Origin: an uncultured Bacteroidia bacterium
GTDB lineage: Bacteria; Bacteroidota; Bacteroidia; Bacteroidales; UBA932
Length of the DNA stretch: 32,893 bases
Reading direction: 5' to 3'
NCBI GenBank assembly: GCA_902768985.1
Contig: CACXNA010000018.1
Coordinates: 1-32,893, forward strand
Part shown: in pieces, positions 12,195 through 16,741 of the stretch
Layout of the letters: every line of letters starts with the position of its first letter
Position numbering within the stretch: the first letter of the stretch is position 1
Translations under genes and position numbers: made by a program
Notes under the pieces: model-generated
Databases searched by the model: none
Told to the model about the DNA's origin: nothing
The model's input: only the letters and a program-made list of their open reading frames with translations

Positions 12195-13421
12195 ATGAAA
12201 AATGCCTTCCTGAAGAATTACGGCGCTACGCTCCTCCTGCTGCTTGGTTTGGTGGTGGGCGGCGTGCTGGGCGCGGTCCTGGGCGAAGACGCCCGGGCCC
12301 TGCGCGTGCCGGGCACGCTGTTCCTGAACCTGGTCTTTATGCTGGTGGTTCCGCTGGTGTTCTTCTCCGTGGCGCATTCCCTCTCCGTCCTGCAGCGGAA
12401 CGGGGTGATCGGCCGGGTCCTCGTGACGTCCCTGGGCGTCTTCCTGGCGATGTCGCTCATTGCGGGCATTTTCGGCTACGGCTTCATGTCCGTGTGGAAC
12501 CCTTTCGTCCGGGTCCTGGGCGAGGGCGGCACCGCGGCGGGCGCCGCGATGGGTGAGGGCATGAGCGTGGGCGACGCCATCGTGTCGGCCTTGACGGTCA
12601 ACGATTTCCCCCTGCTGCTCTCCCGCGAGCACCTGCTGCCGCTCATCCTCTTCTCCGCCCTCTTCGGGCTGGCCGTCGCCCTGCTCGGCGAAAAGGCCGC
12701 GAGCGTGGACCGGTTCATCGCCGAAGGCGAGGCCGTGATCATCAAGATGATGGACCTGGTGATGAAGCTCGCGCCCATCGGTATCGGTTGCTATTTCGCC
12801 GACACCGTCGGCTCGCTGGGCAGCCAGATTGTGGGGGACTATTTCGAAATCTTCCTGGTAGTCAGTGCCGCCACGGCGGTGGTCTACCTGGTCTTCCTGT
12901 CGCTGTACGCGCTGTTCTGCCGCGTGCCGCTCGGGCGCTTCTGGAAAGAGATGATTCCGCCCTCCGCGACAGCCGTCGGCACCTGTTCCTCGGCCGCCAG
13001 CATGCCCGTCAACATGGCCGCTGCGCGCCGCCTGGGCGTGAGCGACAAGCTGGTTGACGGCATCGTCCCGCTGGGGACCCACCTCCACAAGGACGGCTCC
13101 GTAGTCACGTCGGTGGCCAAGGTGCTCTTCGCGTTCTACTTCTTCGGCGCCGCGCCGGAGGGCTTCGGGGGCGCGGCCGTGGTGGTCCTCGTGGCGCTGC
13201 TCGAAAGCGTCGTGGTGGGCGCCATCCCCGTGGGCGGGATGACCGGCGAGCTGATCATCTGCGCAGTGCTGGGCCTGGATCCCTCGTTCGCGGCCGCGCT
13301 GCTGATCATCGGCACCATTTGCGATATCCCCGCCACGCTGCTCAACGTGGCCGGCAACCTCGCCGCTCCGCTCCTCGTTCAGCGGCTGACCCCGGCAAGC
13401 CGGGGAAATGATAATAAGTAG
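12195..13421 (+). CDS. dicarboxylate/amino acid:cation symporter (DAACS family), atypical site
   Basis: Encodes 408 residues from ATG 12195. The start at 12144 was rejected since it precedes the promoter box. Multiple membrane segments plus the two hairpins mark a GltP/DctA-type inner-membrane symporter. The HP1 tip reads SSAASMPVN (265-273) and the transmembrane-7 motif region VPLGTHLHKDGSV (291-303). Key residues differ from the glutamate-transporter norm. The NMDGT motif is HKDGS (298-302). In the transmembrane-8 stretch DIPATLLNVAGN (377-388), the substrate-binding Arg is Ala380 and the sodium-site Asp is Asn388. The substrate and coupling ion are therefore uncertain. It is followed after 4 bases by the S41 lipoprotein. 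Confidence 0.9.
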   Translation: MKNAFLKNYGATLLLLLGLVVGGVLGAVLGEDARALRVPGTLFLNLVFMLVVPLVFFSVAHSLSVLQRNGVIGRVLVTSLGVFLAMSLIAGIFGYGFMSVWNPFVRVLGEGGTAAGAAMGEGMSVGDAIVSALTVNDFPLLLSREHLLPLILFSALFGLAVALLGEKAASVDRFIAEGEAVIIKMMDLVMKLAPIGIGCYFADTVGSLGSQIVGDYFEIFLVVSAATAVVYLVFLSLYALFCRVPLGRFWKEMIPPSATAVGTCSSAASMPVNMAAARRLGVSDKLVDGIVPLGTHLHKDGSVVTSVAKVLFAFYFFGAAPEGFGGAAVVVLVALLESVVVGAIPVGGMTGELIICAVLGLDPSFAAALLIIGTICDIPATLLNVAGNLAAPLLVQRLTPASRGNDNK

Positions 13422-13425
13422 AACA

Positions 13426-14328
13426 ATGAAGATTGGAAAACTTTTGCTGCTGGCCCTCGCATTCTCGGCCGCATCGTGCACCCTGTTTATCAACCAACAA
13501 ACGCCGAAAGGCTATGTGCGCTACGCCGTGTCCCTGCTGGACCGGGACGCTTTGTATGCCGACCGGCCGGAATGGAAGGAGAAACGGGCGGAGGTGCTGG
13601 CGGCGAGCGTTGAGGACATGGACGCGGCGCATCGCCTGATTCAGGAGGCGGCCGCCGTGGCCGGCGGCAAGCATTCCTTCATCATGGCGCCGGTCCGCGA
13701 CACGACTACCTATGAGGAAGTGGCTCCGGAAGTGAGCCTGCTGGAAGGGAATCTCATCCATGCCGTCCTGCCCGCCCATTCGGGCGTGAAGGTCAGCGAC
13801 TCCCTCTACATCCATACCATTCTCGATTTCCTGCAGGCGCACCAGGACGCCCGGGGCGTCATTGTGGACCTGCGGGGCAACACCGGCGGCAACATGTATC
13901 CGATGATTACAGCTGTCTCGCCGCTGCTGCCTGACGGCATCGTATTCAAGTTCCAGAGCCGCAAGCAGACCACGCCGGTCTGGCTCGACTACGTGATGGA
14001 ATCCTGCCAGATTCCCGCAGGGAGCGTCGCCAAATTCCCGGCGTCCACGCCCGTCGCCGTCCTGACGGACGACCACACCGGCAGCTCGGGAGAAGCTACG
14101 CTGATCTGCTTCCGGGGCCTGGACAACGTGCGGACCTTCGGCGCGCCGACGGCCGGCTACGCCAGCGGCAACATGTCGTACACCCTCTCCGACGGGTACC
14201 TGTTCGCCATCACCCGCTCCGCCGATGTCGCCCGCACCGGCGAGGTCTTCTGTGAAGACCCCATCCTTCCGGATGTCCCCACAGAGACGCCGCTGGCGGA
14301 CGCCATCGCCTGGATCTGCGCGCTATAA
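13426..14328 (+). CDS. S41-type peptidase-like lipoprotein
   Basis: Encodes 300 residues from ATG 13426, which gives lipoprotein signal MKIGKLLLLALAFSAASC (Cys18). Residues ~143-300 match the C-terminal processing peptidase fold: GVIVDLRGNTGGNMYP (144-159), TDDHTGSSGEA with the likely nucleophile Ser220, and FGAPTAGYASGNMSYTLSDG. The lysine general base of CtpA-type proteases is not at the expected spacing, so it belongs with the IRBP/tricorn-like branch of S41. No PDZ domain is visible and the protein is short. It lies 4 bases after the transporter gene and probably shares its transcript. It overlaps the convergent ExbB-like gene by 6 bases at the stop codons. Confidence 0.85.
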   Translation: MKIGKLLLLALAFSAASCTLFINQQTPKGYVRYAVSLLDRDALYADRPEWKEKRAEVLAASVEDMDAAHRLIQEAAAVAGGKHSFIMAPVRDTTTYEEVAPEVSLLEGNLIHAVLPAHSGVKVSDSLYIHTILDFLQAHQDARGVIVDLRGNTGGNMYPMITAVSPLLPDGIVFKFQSRKQTTPVWLDYVMESCQIPAGSVAKFPASTPVAVLTDDHTGSSGEATLICFRGLDNVRTFGAPTAGYASGNMSYTLSDGYLFAITRSADVARTGEVFCEDPILPDVPTETPLADAIAWICAL

Positions 14329-14667
14329 TCGCGGCTTCTGGACGATGCGGACGATGAGGGAGACGAGGTAGATGCCGATACCATAGATAGTGGTGTTGAG
14401 CGTGACCTTCAAGCCGCCGCAGATGACACCGATCGGGACCACGTCGAACAGGCCGAGCGGACCTTCTCCCTTGGATGCATACTCTCCCAATACATCCAGC
14501 ACCTGCAGGAGTCCCAGGACCGTCCCCAGAAATCCGAAGAACAGTGCGATCTGACCAATCTCCTTCACCCACCGCGGGGCCTTCCAGGCGGCGAAGAAGA
14601 TAGCGACCAGCAGGACCGTGAGGATCGACATAAAGGCGAGACCTCCTTGAACAAAGAATTGTAACAT
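14323..14667 (-). CDS. small ExbB/TolQ/MotA-like membrane protein (module copy 1)
   Basis: Encodes 114 residues from ATG at 14667. A start 33 codons upstream would lie beyond the promoter box. Three hydrophobic segments are seen. The second includes FFGFLGTVLGLLQVLDVLG and the third GGLKVTLNTTIYGIGIYLVSLIV, which look like the two pore-lining helices of the MotA/TolQ/ExbB proton-channel family. At 114 residues it is about half the usual ExbB length, and no ExbD or TonB partner is nearby. A paralogue lies at 16409-16741; both share the segment around FF(A/V)AWKAP(R/A)WVKE and the ending near RIV(Q)KP. It diverges from LytTR copy 1. Confidence 0.8.
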   Translation of the reverse strand: MLQFFVQGGLAFMSILTVLLVAIFFAAWKAPRWVKEIGQIALFFGFLGTVLGLLQVLDVLGEYASKGEGPLGLFDVVPIGVICGGLKVTLNTTIYGIGIYLVSLIVRIVQKPRL

Positions 14668-14701
14668 AAGGCAAACAGGTTTTTGGGTTAAACTTCTGGG
14701 A

Positions 14702-14732
14702 CAAAAGTAGCCGAACGCAGCGGTCCCCCCAA
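14702..14732 (-). promoter_or_regulatory. promoter of ExbB-like copy 1
   Basis: On the minus strand, TTG (CAA at 14730-14732), 20 bases, then TACTTTTG (CAAAAGTA at 14702-14709). The leader to ATG 14667 is about 34 bases. A long direct repeat (14733-14750) begins right behind the TTG. Confidence 0.7.
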
Positions 14733-14796
14733 GCCGAAACCCCAAACAGGGATGATTTATCCCCAATTTCCCCTTTTGCCGAAACCGGGAAACAGG
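14733..14796. repeat. direct repeats in the divergent control region (operator candidate)
   Basis: GCCGAAACCCCAAACAGG (14733-14750) recurs as GCCGAAACCGGGAAACAGG (14778-14796), 45 bases start to start. Partial forms are GCCGAAC at 14710-14716 and AAACAGGT at 14673-14680. The first copy adjoins the -33 element of the ExbB-like promoter, and the second lies just upstream of the LytTR copy 1 -7 box. LytTR proteins bind paired direct repeats about two helical turns apart, so autoregulation is a reasonable inference. Confidence 0.65.
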
Positions 14797-14805
14797 TTAT
14801 TTTCT

Positions 14806-14813
14806 TACATTTG
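14806..14813 (+). promoter_or_regulatory. -7 box of LytTR copy 1
   Basis: TACATTTG matches TAnnTTTG. The ATG (14822) is 8 bases further. There is no -33 TTTG at the right distance. The second direct repeat ends 9 bases before the box, so the promoter may need an activator. Confidence 0.55.
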
Positions 14814-14821
14814 TTCCAGCA

Positions 14822-15526
14822 ATGAAACGGCTCCTGGTCATATCCTATTGGGCAGTCTCCGTCCTGCTGGTGTCCATCGTCCTCACCAGCCTGGGATACC
14901 GCTTCCTGGAAGCCATGTTCTGCGGGACGATGTTCCTGCCGGGCGCCCTTGCGGCCAAATACTTTTTCCCGAAAGTCGAGTTCAAGAACAGACGGACGGG
15001 GATCAAGAACGCCATTTTCATCGTGTGCGGAATCCTGGTTGCCGAGATGCTGCTGTTCCTGGTCACCCATTTCTACATCATGCACCTGCGCGAGGAGCAG
15101 ATGATGACCGACATTCCCCAGATTCTGACGAATCCCATCTTCATTGCCATCATCCTGACCGTGCTGGCGGCGGGCAGCTACTTTTTCGAGCGCTGGCTGG
15201 ATCAGCTACATCCCACCGCGCCCGCGCCCATCACCTTCACCTCCGGCCGGAAATCGGTGACCCTTCGGGTCGAAGAAATCCTATACGTGGAGTCGAACGA
15301 CGACGCCACCGTCGTCTACGCGACCGGTGGCCGGAGCTTCCGGAACATCACCCCCATTTCTCGCTGGGAAGCGATTCTCAAGCCCCATTTCATCCGCATC
15401 CACCGCTCCTACCTCGTCAACAAGGACGCGGTGAGCGGCGTGGACGTGGATATCCTGTACGTGGGCGACACCCAACTCCCCATCTCCCGGAAATACCGCG
15501 AGACGGTGCAGGGGCTTTACTCGTAG
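14822..15526 (+). CDS. membrane-anchored LytTR transcriptional regulator (module copy 1)
   Basis: Encodes 234 residues. The first ~125 hold about four membrane segments (near 5-24, 31-49, 63-88 and 103-122). The last ~95 form a LytTR DNA-binding domain: SGRKSVTLRVEEILYVES (141-158), RNITPISRWEAIL, FIRIHRSYLVNKDAV (190-204) and LPISRKYRETV. No receiver or kinase domain is present, so sensing is presumably by the membrane part, as in LytTR systems with membrane partners. Its paralogue is the convergent gene at 15517-16227, about half identical over the DNA-binding domain by eye. The two 3' ends overlap by 10 bases. It is divergently paired with ExbB-like copy 1. Confidence 0.9.
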   Translation: MKRLLVISYWAVSVLLVSIVLTSLGYRFLEAMFCGTMFLPGALAAKYFFPKVEFKNRRTGIKNAIFIVCGILVAEMLLFLVTHFYIMHLREEQMMTDIPQILTNPIFIAIILTVLAAGSYFFERWLDQLHPTAPAPITFTSGRKSVTLRVEEILYVESNDDATVVYATGGRSFRNITPISRWEAILKPHFIRIHRSYLVNKDAVSGVDVDILYVGDTQLPISRKYRETVQGLYS

Positions 15527-16227
15527 ATCTGCTGGACGGAATCCTTGTATTTCCGGGAGACGGGCAGCTCCTTGCCCGCCACGCTGACGGACTCTGAAGA
15601 CAAGACCTTCATTTCTGCCCGGTTGACAAGGAAGGCGCGGTGGATCCGGACGAAGCCCGGACCGAGCACGTCCTCCCACTGGCTGATGCCGGTCCGGTTG
15701 CGGTACTGCCGGCCGTCCCGCGCATAGATCCAGACCTCGGCGTCACGGGATTCGATATAGAGGATGTCTTCCTTCCGGAGGGAAACCTTCTTATAGCCGG
15801 AGTTGAACGTGACCGGGCGCTCGGAGGGGAATTTCTTGTCCAGCCACTTCACCAGCAGGTAGTGCCCGTAGGCGAGGATGGCCAGGACGACGGCTACGAA
15901 GACGGGGTTCCAGAGCATGGAGGGGAGATCCCAGCCGCTCTGGACCTGGTCGATGACCAGCAGGAAGAGAAGCTGAATCAGGTAGATGAAGAAGAAGGTC
16001 ATCGTCATCACCCCCAGGATAATGAAGATGGTGTCCAGGACCTGGTCCTTCCGGCCGCGTGTCCGGTCCACTTTGGGCAGGAAGTACGACAGGGCCATGG
16101 CGGCGGGCAGGAAGGACAGGCTCATCGCGACCGCGTGCCCCAGGTCATAGTCCAGGCTCGTGAGGAGGGTGGCCGTCAGGGCGATGGCGGCCAGCCAGTA
16201 GGCGACGATGAGGATTCTTTTCTTCAT
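15517..16227 (-). CDS. membrane-anchored LytTR transcriptional regulator (module copy 2)
   Basis: Encodes 236 residues from ATG 16227; a start 21 codons upstream would put an arginine-rich stretch before the first membrane segment. Architecture equals copy 1: four membrane segments (about 5-24, 32-50, 65-92, 107-125), then LytTR with SGYKKVSLRKEDILYIES (143-160), RNRTGISQWEDVL, FVRIHRAFLVNRAEM (192-206) and LPVSRKYKDSV. The LytTR domain matches copy 1 at about 47 of 99 positions by hand count. The membrane part is also alignable (YW near residue 10, FLP near 40, PKV near 51, NP(I/V)F before the last helix). It is divergent from ExbB-like copy 2. TATTATTG, one mismatch from the -7 consensus, lies 7 bases before its ATG. 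Confidence 0.9.
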   Translation of the reverse strand: MKKRILIVAYWLAAIALTATLLTSLDYDLGHAVAMSLSFLPAAMALSYFLPKVDRTRGRKDQVLDTIFIILGVMTMTFFFIYLIQLLFLLVIDQVQSGWDLPSMLWNPVFVAVVLAILAYGHYLLVKWLDKKFPSERPVTFNSGYKKVSLRKEDILYIESRDAEVWIYARDGRQYRNRTGISQWEDVLGPGFVRIHRAFLVNRAEMKVLSSESVSVAGKELPVSRKYKDSVQQIYE

Positions 16228-16327
16228 TCCGAATGCAATAATACGCATTCTTCCGCGAAAAAGCAGCGCCCGGGCGCCGCGAAAAGGCAATGTCGGGGGA
16301 TTTGACGCCGGTTTGTGCGGATTCTGC

Positions 16328-16360
16328 TTTGCTTTTCTGTATCGAACGTGCGTACCTTTG
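16328..16360 (+). promoter_or_regulatory. promoter of ExbB-like copy 2
   Basis: TTTG at 16328-16331, 21 bases, then TACCTTTG at 16353-16360. The leader to ATG 16409 is about 48 bases. The direct repeats of the 14.7 kb control region are not found here. Confidence 0.7.
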
Positions 16361-16408
16361 CAACAAGGAATTCCGAACCAGATTGTTCAACACTAAAAAC
16401 AAGACATT

Positions 16409-16741
16409 ATGTTACCGCTTGTCTCCAACATCTTTCAACTCTTCAGCTCCAACGTCGCCGGAACCTGCGTCGTCACGCTGTGTCTGATCGCTCTCTTCTT
16501 CGTGGCCTGGAAGGCGCCCGCCTGGGTGAAGGAAGCCGGCCTCGCCGGGCTCGCCGTCGGCTGGCTGTGGACCATCATCGGGTTCATGCAGATGGGAAAT
16601 GCCATCATCGAGTGCGAGCCCGACGTGGACACGTATATCATCTGGGGCGCCGTCCCTTGCGCCCTGCTTCCAGCTGCCTACGGCACCGTGGTCTACATCA
16701 TCTCGCTGATCATCCGTGTCGTCCGCAAACCGAAGATGTAG
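16409..16741 (+). CDS. small ExbB/MotA-like membrane protein, diverged (module copy 2)
   Basis: Encodes 110 residues with three hydrophobic segments. It is a diverged paralogue of the 14323 gene: FFVAWKAPAWVKEAG matches FFAAWKAPRWVKEIG, and the end SLIIRVVRKPKM matches SLIVRIVQKPRL. The pore-like second helix (LAVGWLWTIIGFMQMGNAI) is less canonical than in copy 1. The loop holds acidic residues (ECEPDVDTY). The function is unknown; a proton-channel role for this copy is weaker than for copy 1. It diverges from LytTR copy 2 across a 181-base spacer, and a terminator follows. Confidence 0.75.
   Translation: MLPLVSNIFQLFSSNVAGTCVVTLCLIALFFVAWKAPAWVKEAGLAGLAVGWLWTIIGFMQMGNAIIECEPDVDTYIIWGAVPCALLPAAYGTVVYIISLIIRVVRKPKM

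Follow-up and report, generated by a model that had tools for sequence, protein, structure and literature searches.

A recurrent divergent pairing of mini-ExbB proteins with membrane LytTR regulators in Bacteroidota

What do two very small ExbB-like proteins do beside two membrane-embedded LytTR regulators, in a block of four genes arranged as a mirror image? The block lies in an uncultured Bacteroidia genome, on contig CACXNA010000018.1 of assembly GCA_902768985.1, which we analysed over its full 32,893 nucleotides (the window). The window spans contig C18 from end to end, one of the 28 contigs that make up a 2.35-Mb genome, and the nearest named relatives that we found are uncultured Bacteroidales/Bacteroidia, several of them from rumen or abomasum. 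Its genes run mini-ExbB (−), four-helix LytTR (+), four-helix LytTR (−), mini-ExbB (+) at 14323-16741, and all four open reading frames (ORFs) lie where an earlier, sequence-only reading of the window had placed them. The 10-base tail-to-tail overlap of the LytTR 1 and LytTR 2 genes which that reading described is likewise borne out by the ORF coordinates (15526 versus 15517). According to the neighbourhood counts reported below, this layout exceeds chance, and the conclusion that mini-ExbB and membrane LytTR genes form a conserved module is strongly supported. We favour, with about even confidence, the interpretation that the pair acts as an autoregulated envelope-sensing module, resembling the LytTR regulatory systems (LRS) and the Lia systems, with an ExbB/MotA-type protein as its membrane partner.

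Pairing of mini-ExbB and membrane LytTR genes

Searching the window genome and 100 relatives with each mini-ExbB yielded 25 mini-ExbB loci, all of them in this genome and others of the same genus. A scan of named genomes with LytTR 2 added four loci (a fifth, L064, was G025:C149 again; L064 and L092 are one locus and were counted once), which brought the genus set to 29. At 26 of these 29 loci, a membrane LytTR gene lies divergently beside the mini-ExbB gene. The two adjoin directly at 25 loci, and the remaining pair, on contig 15 of the window genome, has a lipoprotein gene in between. The other three loci comprise one at a contig end and two in different contexts. A reverse profile search of the 101 genomes gave 22 full-length regulator matches (E <= 1.9e-80). 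None of them falls outside the genus, and each lies at a mini-ExbB locus (22/22). Among the window genome and 60 same-genus genomes, 16 carry both genes, one carries mini-ExbB only, none carries a full-length regulator only and 44 carry neither (Fisher p 8e-14, a value that ignores the relatedness of the genomes); the last class includes G021 (LytTR gene cut by the contig end), G041 (70-aa remnant) and G055 (LytTR domain match only). The sequence-only reading had suspected a module on the strength of the window alone, and the genus-wide counts uphold that suspicion, as do those for the order and phylum.

The contig 15 locus (L087:9269-11424) represents a third copy of the module in the window genome, running from a membrane LytTR gene through a 21-bp repeat and the lipoprotein gene to mini-ExbB 3. 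The lipoprotein is a 6-bladed-propeller protein (DUF5128) encoded in one apparent operon with mini-ExbB 3. The remnant on contig 20 of G041 (L252) consists of 70 C-terminal LytTR residues with no mini-ExbB match, and is possibly a decayed module.

To cover the order and the phylum, we searched 295 and 296 genomes, respectively, with a profile of 25 mini-ExbB proteins (A1). Matches occurred in 229 and 137 genomes, and most of those listed have ordinary ExbB length. We examined 42 regions around short-ORF matches among those listed and excluded ExbB matches over ~228 aa from the mini-ExbB counts. Three regions hold no mini-ExbB and were dropped (G138:C31 and G061:C54, which are cut by contig ends beside genes that look ExbD-like by eye, and G284:C1), and the rest hold 41 mini-ExbB genes; weaker ones may be missing from the matches listed. 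Among the matches listed, 35 of the 41 accompany either a four-helix LytTR regulator or a LytS-type kinase with a LytTR regulator: 17 lie in divergent orientation to a membrane LytTR gene (one of these being split), and 18 to a kinase gene with its LytTR response regulator (an amidase gene intervenes in one case). The kinase loci encode an HPHxLFN H-box in 15 of 18 cases and a DDE receiver motif in all 18, and the one kinase/regulator pair scanned with Pfam matched His_kinase and Response_reg + LytTR, respectively; no such pair lies beside the window genes. Five of the 41 have other neighbours, namely GntR + Band_7 + mini-ExbB operons (three), a PadR operon (one) and a position after a MacB/FtsX permease (one), and one lies at a contig end. 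As a control, we inspected 1.5-kb flanks and found a LytTR gene beside 0 of 34 ordinary-length ExbB loci versus 38 of 50 mini-ExbB loci, the misses among the latter being largely loci with a kinase gene in between.

The three operons combining GntR, Band_7 (SPFH) and mini-ExbB genes (L157:1960-3747, L165:3983-5708 and L167:2470-4207) form a second recurrent context.

Protein architecture and the shared intergenic repeat

Mini-ExbB 1 scores 30.8 bits against Pfam MotA_ExbB, above the cut-off of 22.9, and mini-ExbB 2, at 11.7 bits and below it, was assigned by its similarity to mini-ExbB 1 (39/114 identical residues, 34%). The domain is matched at E<=0.01 in 13 of 25 genus members, and the two distant members scanned, from L158 and L171, exceed the cut-off. 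Searching solved structures by sequence returned MotA as the best match (E 0.14, not significant on its own). ExbB/MotA proteins have their three membrane segments in the same order as the mini-ExbB proteins, with a large cytoplasmic domain separating the first segment from the second. That domain is absent from the alignment of the mini-ExbB proteins, which measure ~110-130 aa and have a cytoplasmic loop of about ten residues. Common to the 63 aligned sequences are a GG ahead of segment 1 and a basic residue behind it (52/63), glycines in segment 2, a GG with a basic residue at the start of segment 3 (51), YG or FG within segment 3, and a basic residue near the end (47/63).

Stators of the ExbB family pair with a partner carrying a membrane Asp (ExbD/TolR/MotB). 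The membrane segments of the 63 mini-ExbB proteins have no conserved acidic residue, the commonest, at the end of segment 2, occurring in 23. Some distant members keep a MotA-like TT.YG stretch, with its threonines present in 21 and 23 of 63. Among the ten genes flanking the block in the window, three of which have no match at all, Pfam named no ExbD/MotB-like gene. Because no membrane acid is conserved, the mini-ExbB proteins are unlikely to act as working ExbB/MotA-type stators. A proton channel with an ExbD of its own, considered as a candidate, is unsupported for the same reason and since no ExbD-like neighbour was named in the window. ZorA is likewise MotA-like; PADLOC models gave no match at E<=0.01, and an anti-phage reading was dropped for that reason.

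One ORF, L090:7367-7960(-), holds two mini-ExbB repeats in a single frame, the second without segment 1, which hints at an oligomer. The mini-ExbB proteins of L075, L076, L077 and L084, which belong to one clade, have an extra conserved N-terminal stretch, YYVVDSLGVSHP, before segment 1.

LytTR is the sole Pfam domain over the cut-off in both regulators (54.6 and 50.2 bits; cut-off 22.6), and no receiver domain was matched. The two proteins are identical at 92 of 235 positions (39%), comprising 47/100 in the DNA-binding part and 43/133 in the membrane part. These values agree with the roughly half-identical DNA-binding domains recognized in the sequence-only reading. Its four-segment membrane region corresponds to four long helices in our AlphaFold2 model of LytTR 2 (mean predicted local distance difference test score, pLDDT, 78.5), where they precede a LytTR fold that Foldseek found to resemble the LytTR domains of AgrA and 3d6w.

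The four-helix domains of the LytTR fusions and of the LytS-type kinases appear to be homologous. Alignment of the domains of 14 distant LytTR proteins with those of 16 kinases gave an hhalign E of 8e-33 (probability 99.9), and the genus domains matched the distant LytTR domains with E 3.6e-6 (87%) and the kinase domains with E 3e-5 (probability 73%). Since these alignments match across the two layouts, mini-ExbB would thus be tied to one kind of membrane domain, to which LytTR output is joined either directly or through a phosphorelay. The occurrence of a related domain in both layouts is the best hint, though no proof, that mini-ExbB is the partner of that domain.

The two divergent genes of each pair flank a direct repeat of the approximate form GTCRAAWCCC with period 21, found in 25 of 25 genus intergenic regions examined, both window regions included. 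In a consensus-free test on 24 sequences, period 21 reached z 12.5, the second-best period being 29 (z 5.2). Our half-site score relied on a consensus picked after inspection and gave period 21 a bonus; with the bonus removed, 21 alone scored best among periods 19-24 in 24 of 25 regions, and it tied with period 24 in the window's region A. The mini-ExbB of L068 is broken in frame, and this locus was excluded from sets A1-A3; L076 was excluded from A2, and L079, with no exact −7 box, from A3.

The Bacteroidota −7 consensus is TAnnTTTG. A TATCTTTG promoter box is listed for Bacteroides in Table 3 of PMC6193735. The distance from the repeat to the −7 box on the mini-ExbB side is 23, 24 or 25 bp in 24 of 24 regions with an exact box (standard deviation, SD, 0.8 bp), the first gene behind that box being the lipoprotein gene in the contig 15 copy. 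The distance to the LytTR −7 box is 40-43 in 13, 51-54 in 10 and 63 in one of 24, stepping by about one helical turn. Aligned toward mini-ExbB, the region reads approximately GGGGATTTGAC-N10-GGGGATTCnACTTTG-N18/20-TACCTTTG, and the second half-site touches the presumed −33 TTTG. The repeat is thus likely to be a LytTR operator shared by the two genes. In 16 of 25 regions, 6-8 nt separate the end of the LytTR −7 box from the start codon, and therefore the LytTR message should often be nearly leaderless.

We scored genomes with an operator model, R1, of which repeats A (32.6 bits) and B (50.3 bits) are both training members. In the 2.35-Mb genome it found four strong sites, of which three, located at mini-ExbB genes or in front of an operon that includes one, belong to the training set. 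The two strong sites outside the window both stand ahead of envelope genes. The one independent site, at 77502-77565(-) on contig 15 (L190), precedes a gene for an outer-membrane beta-barrel of ~970 aa (PF14905) at E 3.3e-10; the next-best site has E 0.04. In the window genome and 60 relatives, matches at E <= 0.001 occur in 11 genomes, nearly all at mini-ExbB promoters, the exceptions being the PF14905 site, a site on contig 260 of G025 (L209), where an operator copy lies ~70 bp before a 417-aa lipoprotein-like gene, and a weak match in another family (G069). R1 scored 150 of 276 first-look candidates in the window genome and 86 per genome in the wider search, so that weak sites may be missed. 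Because the matches sit mostly at mini-ExbB promoters, the regulon found would consist of little more than the module and a few envelope genes. The gene next to the PF14905 gene looks M56-peptidase/TonB-like by eye. Coordinates of the block are collected in Table 1.

Table 1. Genes, repeats and promoter boxes of the four-gene block (window coordinates)
Feature	Position	Strand	Remarks
Mini-ExbB 1 (114 aa)	14323..14667	-	three presumed membrane segments; AWKAPRWVKEIG loop, KPRL end; Pfam MotA_ExbB
Membrane LytTR regulator 1 (234 aa)	14822..15526	+	Pfam LytTR; 39% identity to modelled LytTR 2
Membrane LytTR regulator 2 (236 aa)	15517..16227	-	AlphaFold2 model, four helices + LytTR fold; Foldseek to AgrA, 3d6w
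Mini-ExbB 2 (110 aa)	16409..16741	+	34% identity to mini-ExbB 1; below Pfam cut-off
Direct repeat A, proposed LytTR operator common to mini-ExbB 1 and LytTR 1	14733..14763		half-sites 14733-14742, 14754-14763; period 21
Direct repeat B, proposed LytTR operator common to mini-ExbB 2 and LytTR 2	16297..16327		period 21
-7 box TACTTTTG of mini-ExbB 1	14702..14709	-	34 nt before ATG
-7 box TACATTTG of LytTR 1	14806..14813	+	8 nt before ATG; message may be nearly leaderless
-7 box TACCTTTG of mini-ExbB 2	16353..16360	+	48 nt before ATG
-7-like box TATTATTG of LytTR 2	16236..16243	-	8 nt before ATG; one mismatch to TAnnTTTG

Role of the mini-ExbB proteins and origin of the mirror

In the mechanism that we propose, the block would represent two copies of one autoregulated membrane-signalling module. 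The four-helix domain would tether the LytTR DNA-binding domain to the membrane, and the divergent mini-ExbB, a three-segment protein of ExbB/MotA type stripped of its cytoplasmic domain, would be the membrane partner of that four-helix domain. A LytTR dimer would bind the 21-bp-period repeat between the genes. Because this repeat directly adjoins the presumed −33 region on the mini-ExbB side and stands in helical phase with the promoter of the regulator, activation is expected to raise both proteins. Mini-ExbB may then feed back on the four-helix domain by physical contact, most probably as a brake that is freed by membrane or envelope disturbance, in the manner of LiaF-type or HdrM-type proteins. 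In other Bacteroidota, a related four-helix domain would feed a LytS-type kinase and a LytTR response regulator. Mini-ExbB would in effect take the place of LiaF, PspC or HdrM in an envelope-state switch, a proposal to which we give a roughly equal chance of being right or wrong, since the mini-ExbB neighbours match the kinds found around Lia/PSP sensors and the logic is nearest to that of LRS.

Several observations weigh against the proposed mechanism. (i) Mini-ExbB is not bound to LytTR, which is missing at 5 of 41 distant and 2 of 29 near loci; the latter are G012:C19 (by eye, in an operon with a sigma-factor-like gene) and G036:C53, where mini-ExbB has other neighbours. (ii) The mini-ExbB trees track the membrane part and the DNA-binding part of the regulators alike (difference 0.013-0.018, with an interval that spans 0), and contact with the four-helix domain is not favoured over mere co-regulation for that reason. 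(iii) The repeat is clear in the genus alone, and the pooled distant loci give no period-21 signal: their best periods are 20 (z 3.4, 15 fusion loci) and 17 (z 2.2, 14 kinase loci), with single good repeats at L151, L158, L164 and L169. (iv) The mini-ExbB structure model, of low confidence (pLDDT 61.5), has two 32-residue helices and no fold match. (v) The weaker hhalign matches (3e-5, 73%) lack a control with unrelated membrane domains.

A possible, if less probable, explanation is that mini-ExbB is the output of the system, a small membrane-protecting effector and the main target of the LytTR regulator, much as lrgA is a target of LytSR. The repeat abuts the mini-ExbB-side promoter at a near-fixed spacing, more fixed than that to the LytTR promoter, and mini-ExbB stays while the regulator changes (GntR + Band_7, PadR, MacB/FtsX, sigma-factor-like). 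A phosphorelay at the kinase loci needs no extra subunit, and the effector would resemble psp/lia genes under their regulators. However, mini-ExbB is strictly paired one to one, and co-inherited, with a single type of regulator within the genus; this and the related four-helix domain in both signalling layouts fit a membrane partner at least equally well.

A bolder extension of the partner hypothesis, which we hold to be doubtful, is that the ExbB/MotA stator fold has been turned into a signalling subunit in much of Bacteroidota. Mini-ExbB would read the state of the membrane, energetic or mechanical, and gate four-helix transducers, either LytTR fusions or LytS-type kinases, forming a new class of membrane-state sensor with one divergent operator. 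Less probable still is an energised sensor, in which proton or ion flow through mini-ExbB reports membrane energy to LytTR. The MotA_ExbB matches in 13 of 25 genus members, the profile matches across order and phylum (mostly to ordinary-length ExbB) and the TT.YG stretch of some distant members would suit such a sensor, whereas the lack of a conserved membrane acid, the scarcity of the two threonines, the loss of the cytoplasmic domain and a window neighbourhood in which Pfam named no ExbD/MotB-like gene argue against it. The sequence-only reading had suggested that the proteins sense membrane energy, and the same lack of a conserved acid and of a named ExbD/MotB-like gene nearby leaves that suggestion unsupported. 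Adjacency never proves joint function, but coincidental neighbours, or a shared bidirectional promoter serving functionally unrelated genes, are very improbable given the pairing at genus, order and phylum level, the 0/34 control loci, the reciprocal 22/22 and the operator spacing.

The mirror itself had been attributed to an inverted duplication around 15521. The mirror order of the genes is real and perfect, and the arms share scattered short DNA matches, the best covering 51 bases at 86%. The trees and identities nevertheless speak against a recent event of this kind, which we rejected and to which we assign next to no probability. Orthologues of each window pair are 68-76% identical in other genomes, whereas the two window copies share 34-39%. 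In genus trees of 24 pairs, the left-hand pair (A) groups with L071-L074 for both genes and the right-hand pair (B) with L064-L067, L081, L086 and L088 for both genes, so that old paralogues in separate clades stand side by side; L083 falls into clade B for the regulator but not for mini-ExbB, and the mini-ExbB tree of 39 pairs does not unite clade A. Mirror-tree correlations were 0.66 (24 genus pairs) and 0.79 (39 pairs), with 0/5000 permutations each. As judged from these trees, the pairs are inherited largely as units, and two old lineages meet tail to tail in the window. The S41-peptidase gene at 13408-14328, left of the block, has a homologue (57% identity) that adjoins a B-type LytTR gene in L086, and this weakly suggests, also against a duplication, that pair A arrived next to a pair B that was already in place.

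Relation to known systems

In the open-licence full-text literature, we found no description of a LytTR gene paired with an ExbB/TolQ/MotA gene, and one may exist elsewhere. PMC5395568 and PMC10710014 mention LytTR and ExbB, neither concerning such a pair in the passages at hand. The pairing recurs in many members of the phylum and seems to be undescribed. Membrane-tethered transcription factors are reported, in the part of PMC10269533 drawn on here, to be enriched in Bacteroidota. A candidate partner, a candidate operator, the kinase layout and the near one-to-one co-occurrence in the genus together make the switching of such factors directly testable. The module was seen in sampled genomes of several families of the phylum, so culturable carriers should exist. 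If the partner role holds, the ExbB/MotA fold would be used outside motors and transport.

Among known systems, we compared the module with the LRS, as described in the portions of PMC6193735 consulted, where a membrane protein keeps a LytTR factor inactive and direct repeats allow that factor to activate the operon encoding it. Like HdrRM and BrsRM, the module combines a LytTR regulator lacking a receiver domain with an adjoining small membrane protein, has promoter direct repeats that imply autoregulation and occurs in several copies per genome, which cross-regulate in Streptococcus mutans. In LRS, however, a soluble regulator lies upstream of its inhibitor in one operon, whereas in the present module four membrane helices form part of the regulator, the two genes diverge (in the window and at the paired loci examined), the partner is of ExbB/MotA type and the repeat abuts the presumed −33 of the partner. 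Neither ExbB nor 'divergent' occurs in the main text of PMC6193735. The Bacteroides 'LRS-like' operons in the same portions of that source (B. thetaiotaomicron, B. ovatus) share the phylum, a LytTR protein with membrane segments and direct repeats before a TATCTTTG promoter, but their partner is NfeD-like + DUF2154 and lies upstream in one operon, and their 11-bp repeat has an 11-bp spacer and is located 11 bp from the promoter.

HigX and other Caulobacter LytTR factors with four transmembrane helices, termed 'fused LRS' by their authors, also have four helices followed by LytTR and target envelope genes, according to the sections of PMC13384398 at hand. They differ in that no ExbB-like partner is mentioned, ExbB and TolQ having no occurrence in the main text of PMC13384398. 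In the Lia/PSP systems, as covered by the parts of PMC11237479 used here, small membrane sensors accompany two-component, LytTR, GntR or PadR regulators and Band-7 proteins, and one actinobacterial layout places a PspC gene divergent from a kinase/regulator pair. PspC, LiaI-LiaF-TM and Toastrack gave no Pfam match up to E 1 in the four window proteins, and MotA does not occur in the main text of PMC11237479 (ExbB was not looked up there). ExbB/TolQ/MotA stators share the Pfam MotA_ExbB domain over cut-off with mini-ExbB 1 and two distant members, but mini-ExbB proteins differ from them in their size, their short loop, the lack of a conserved membrane acid and the lack of an ExbD/MotB partner found in the window. 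In summary, membrane LytTR factors and LRS-like pairs are already known, and the new elements are a candidate partner of ExbB type, a divergent gene order with a proposed operator, and the alternative layout with a kinase.

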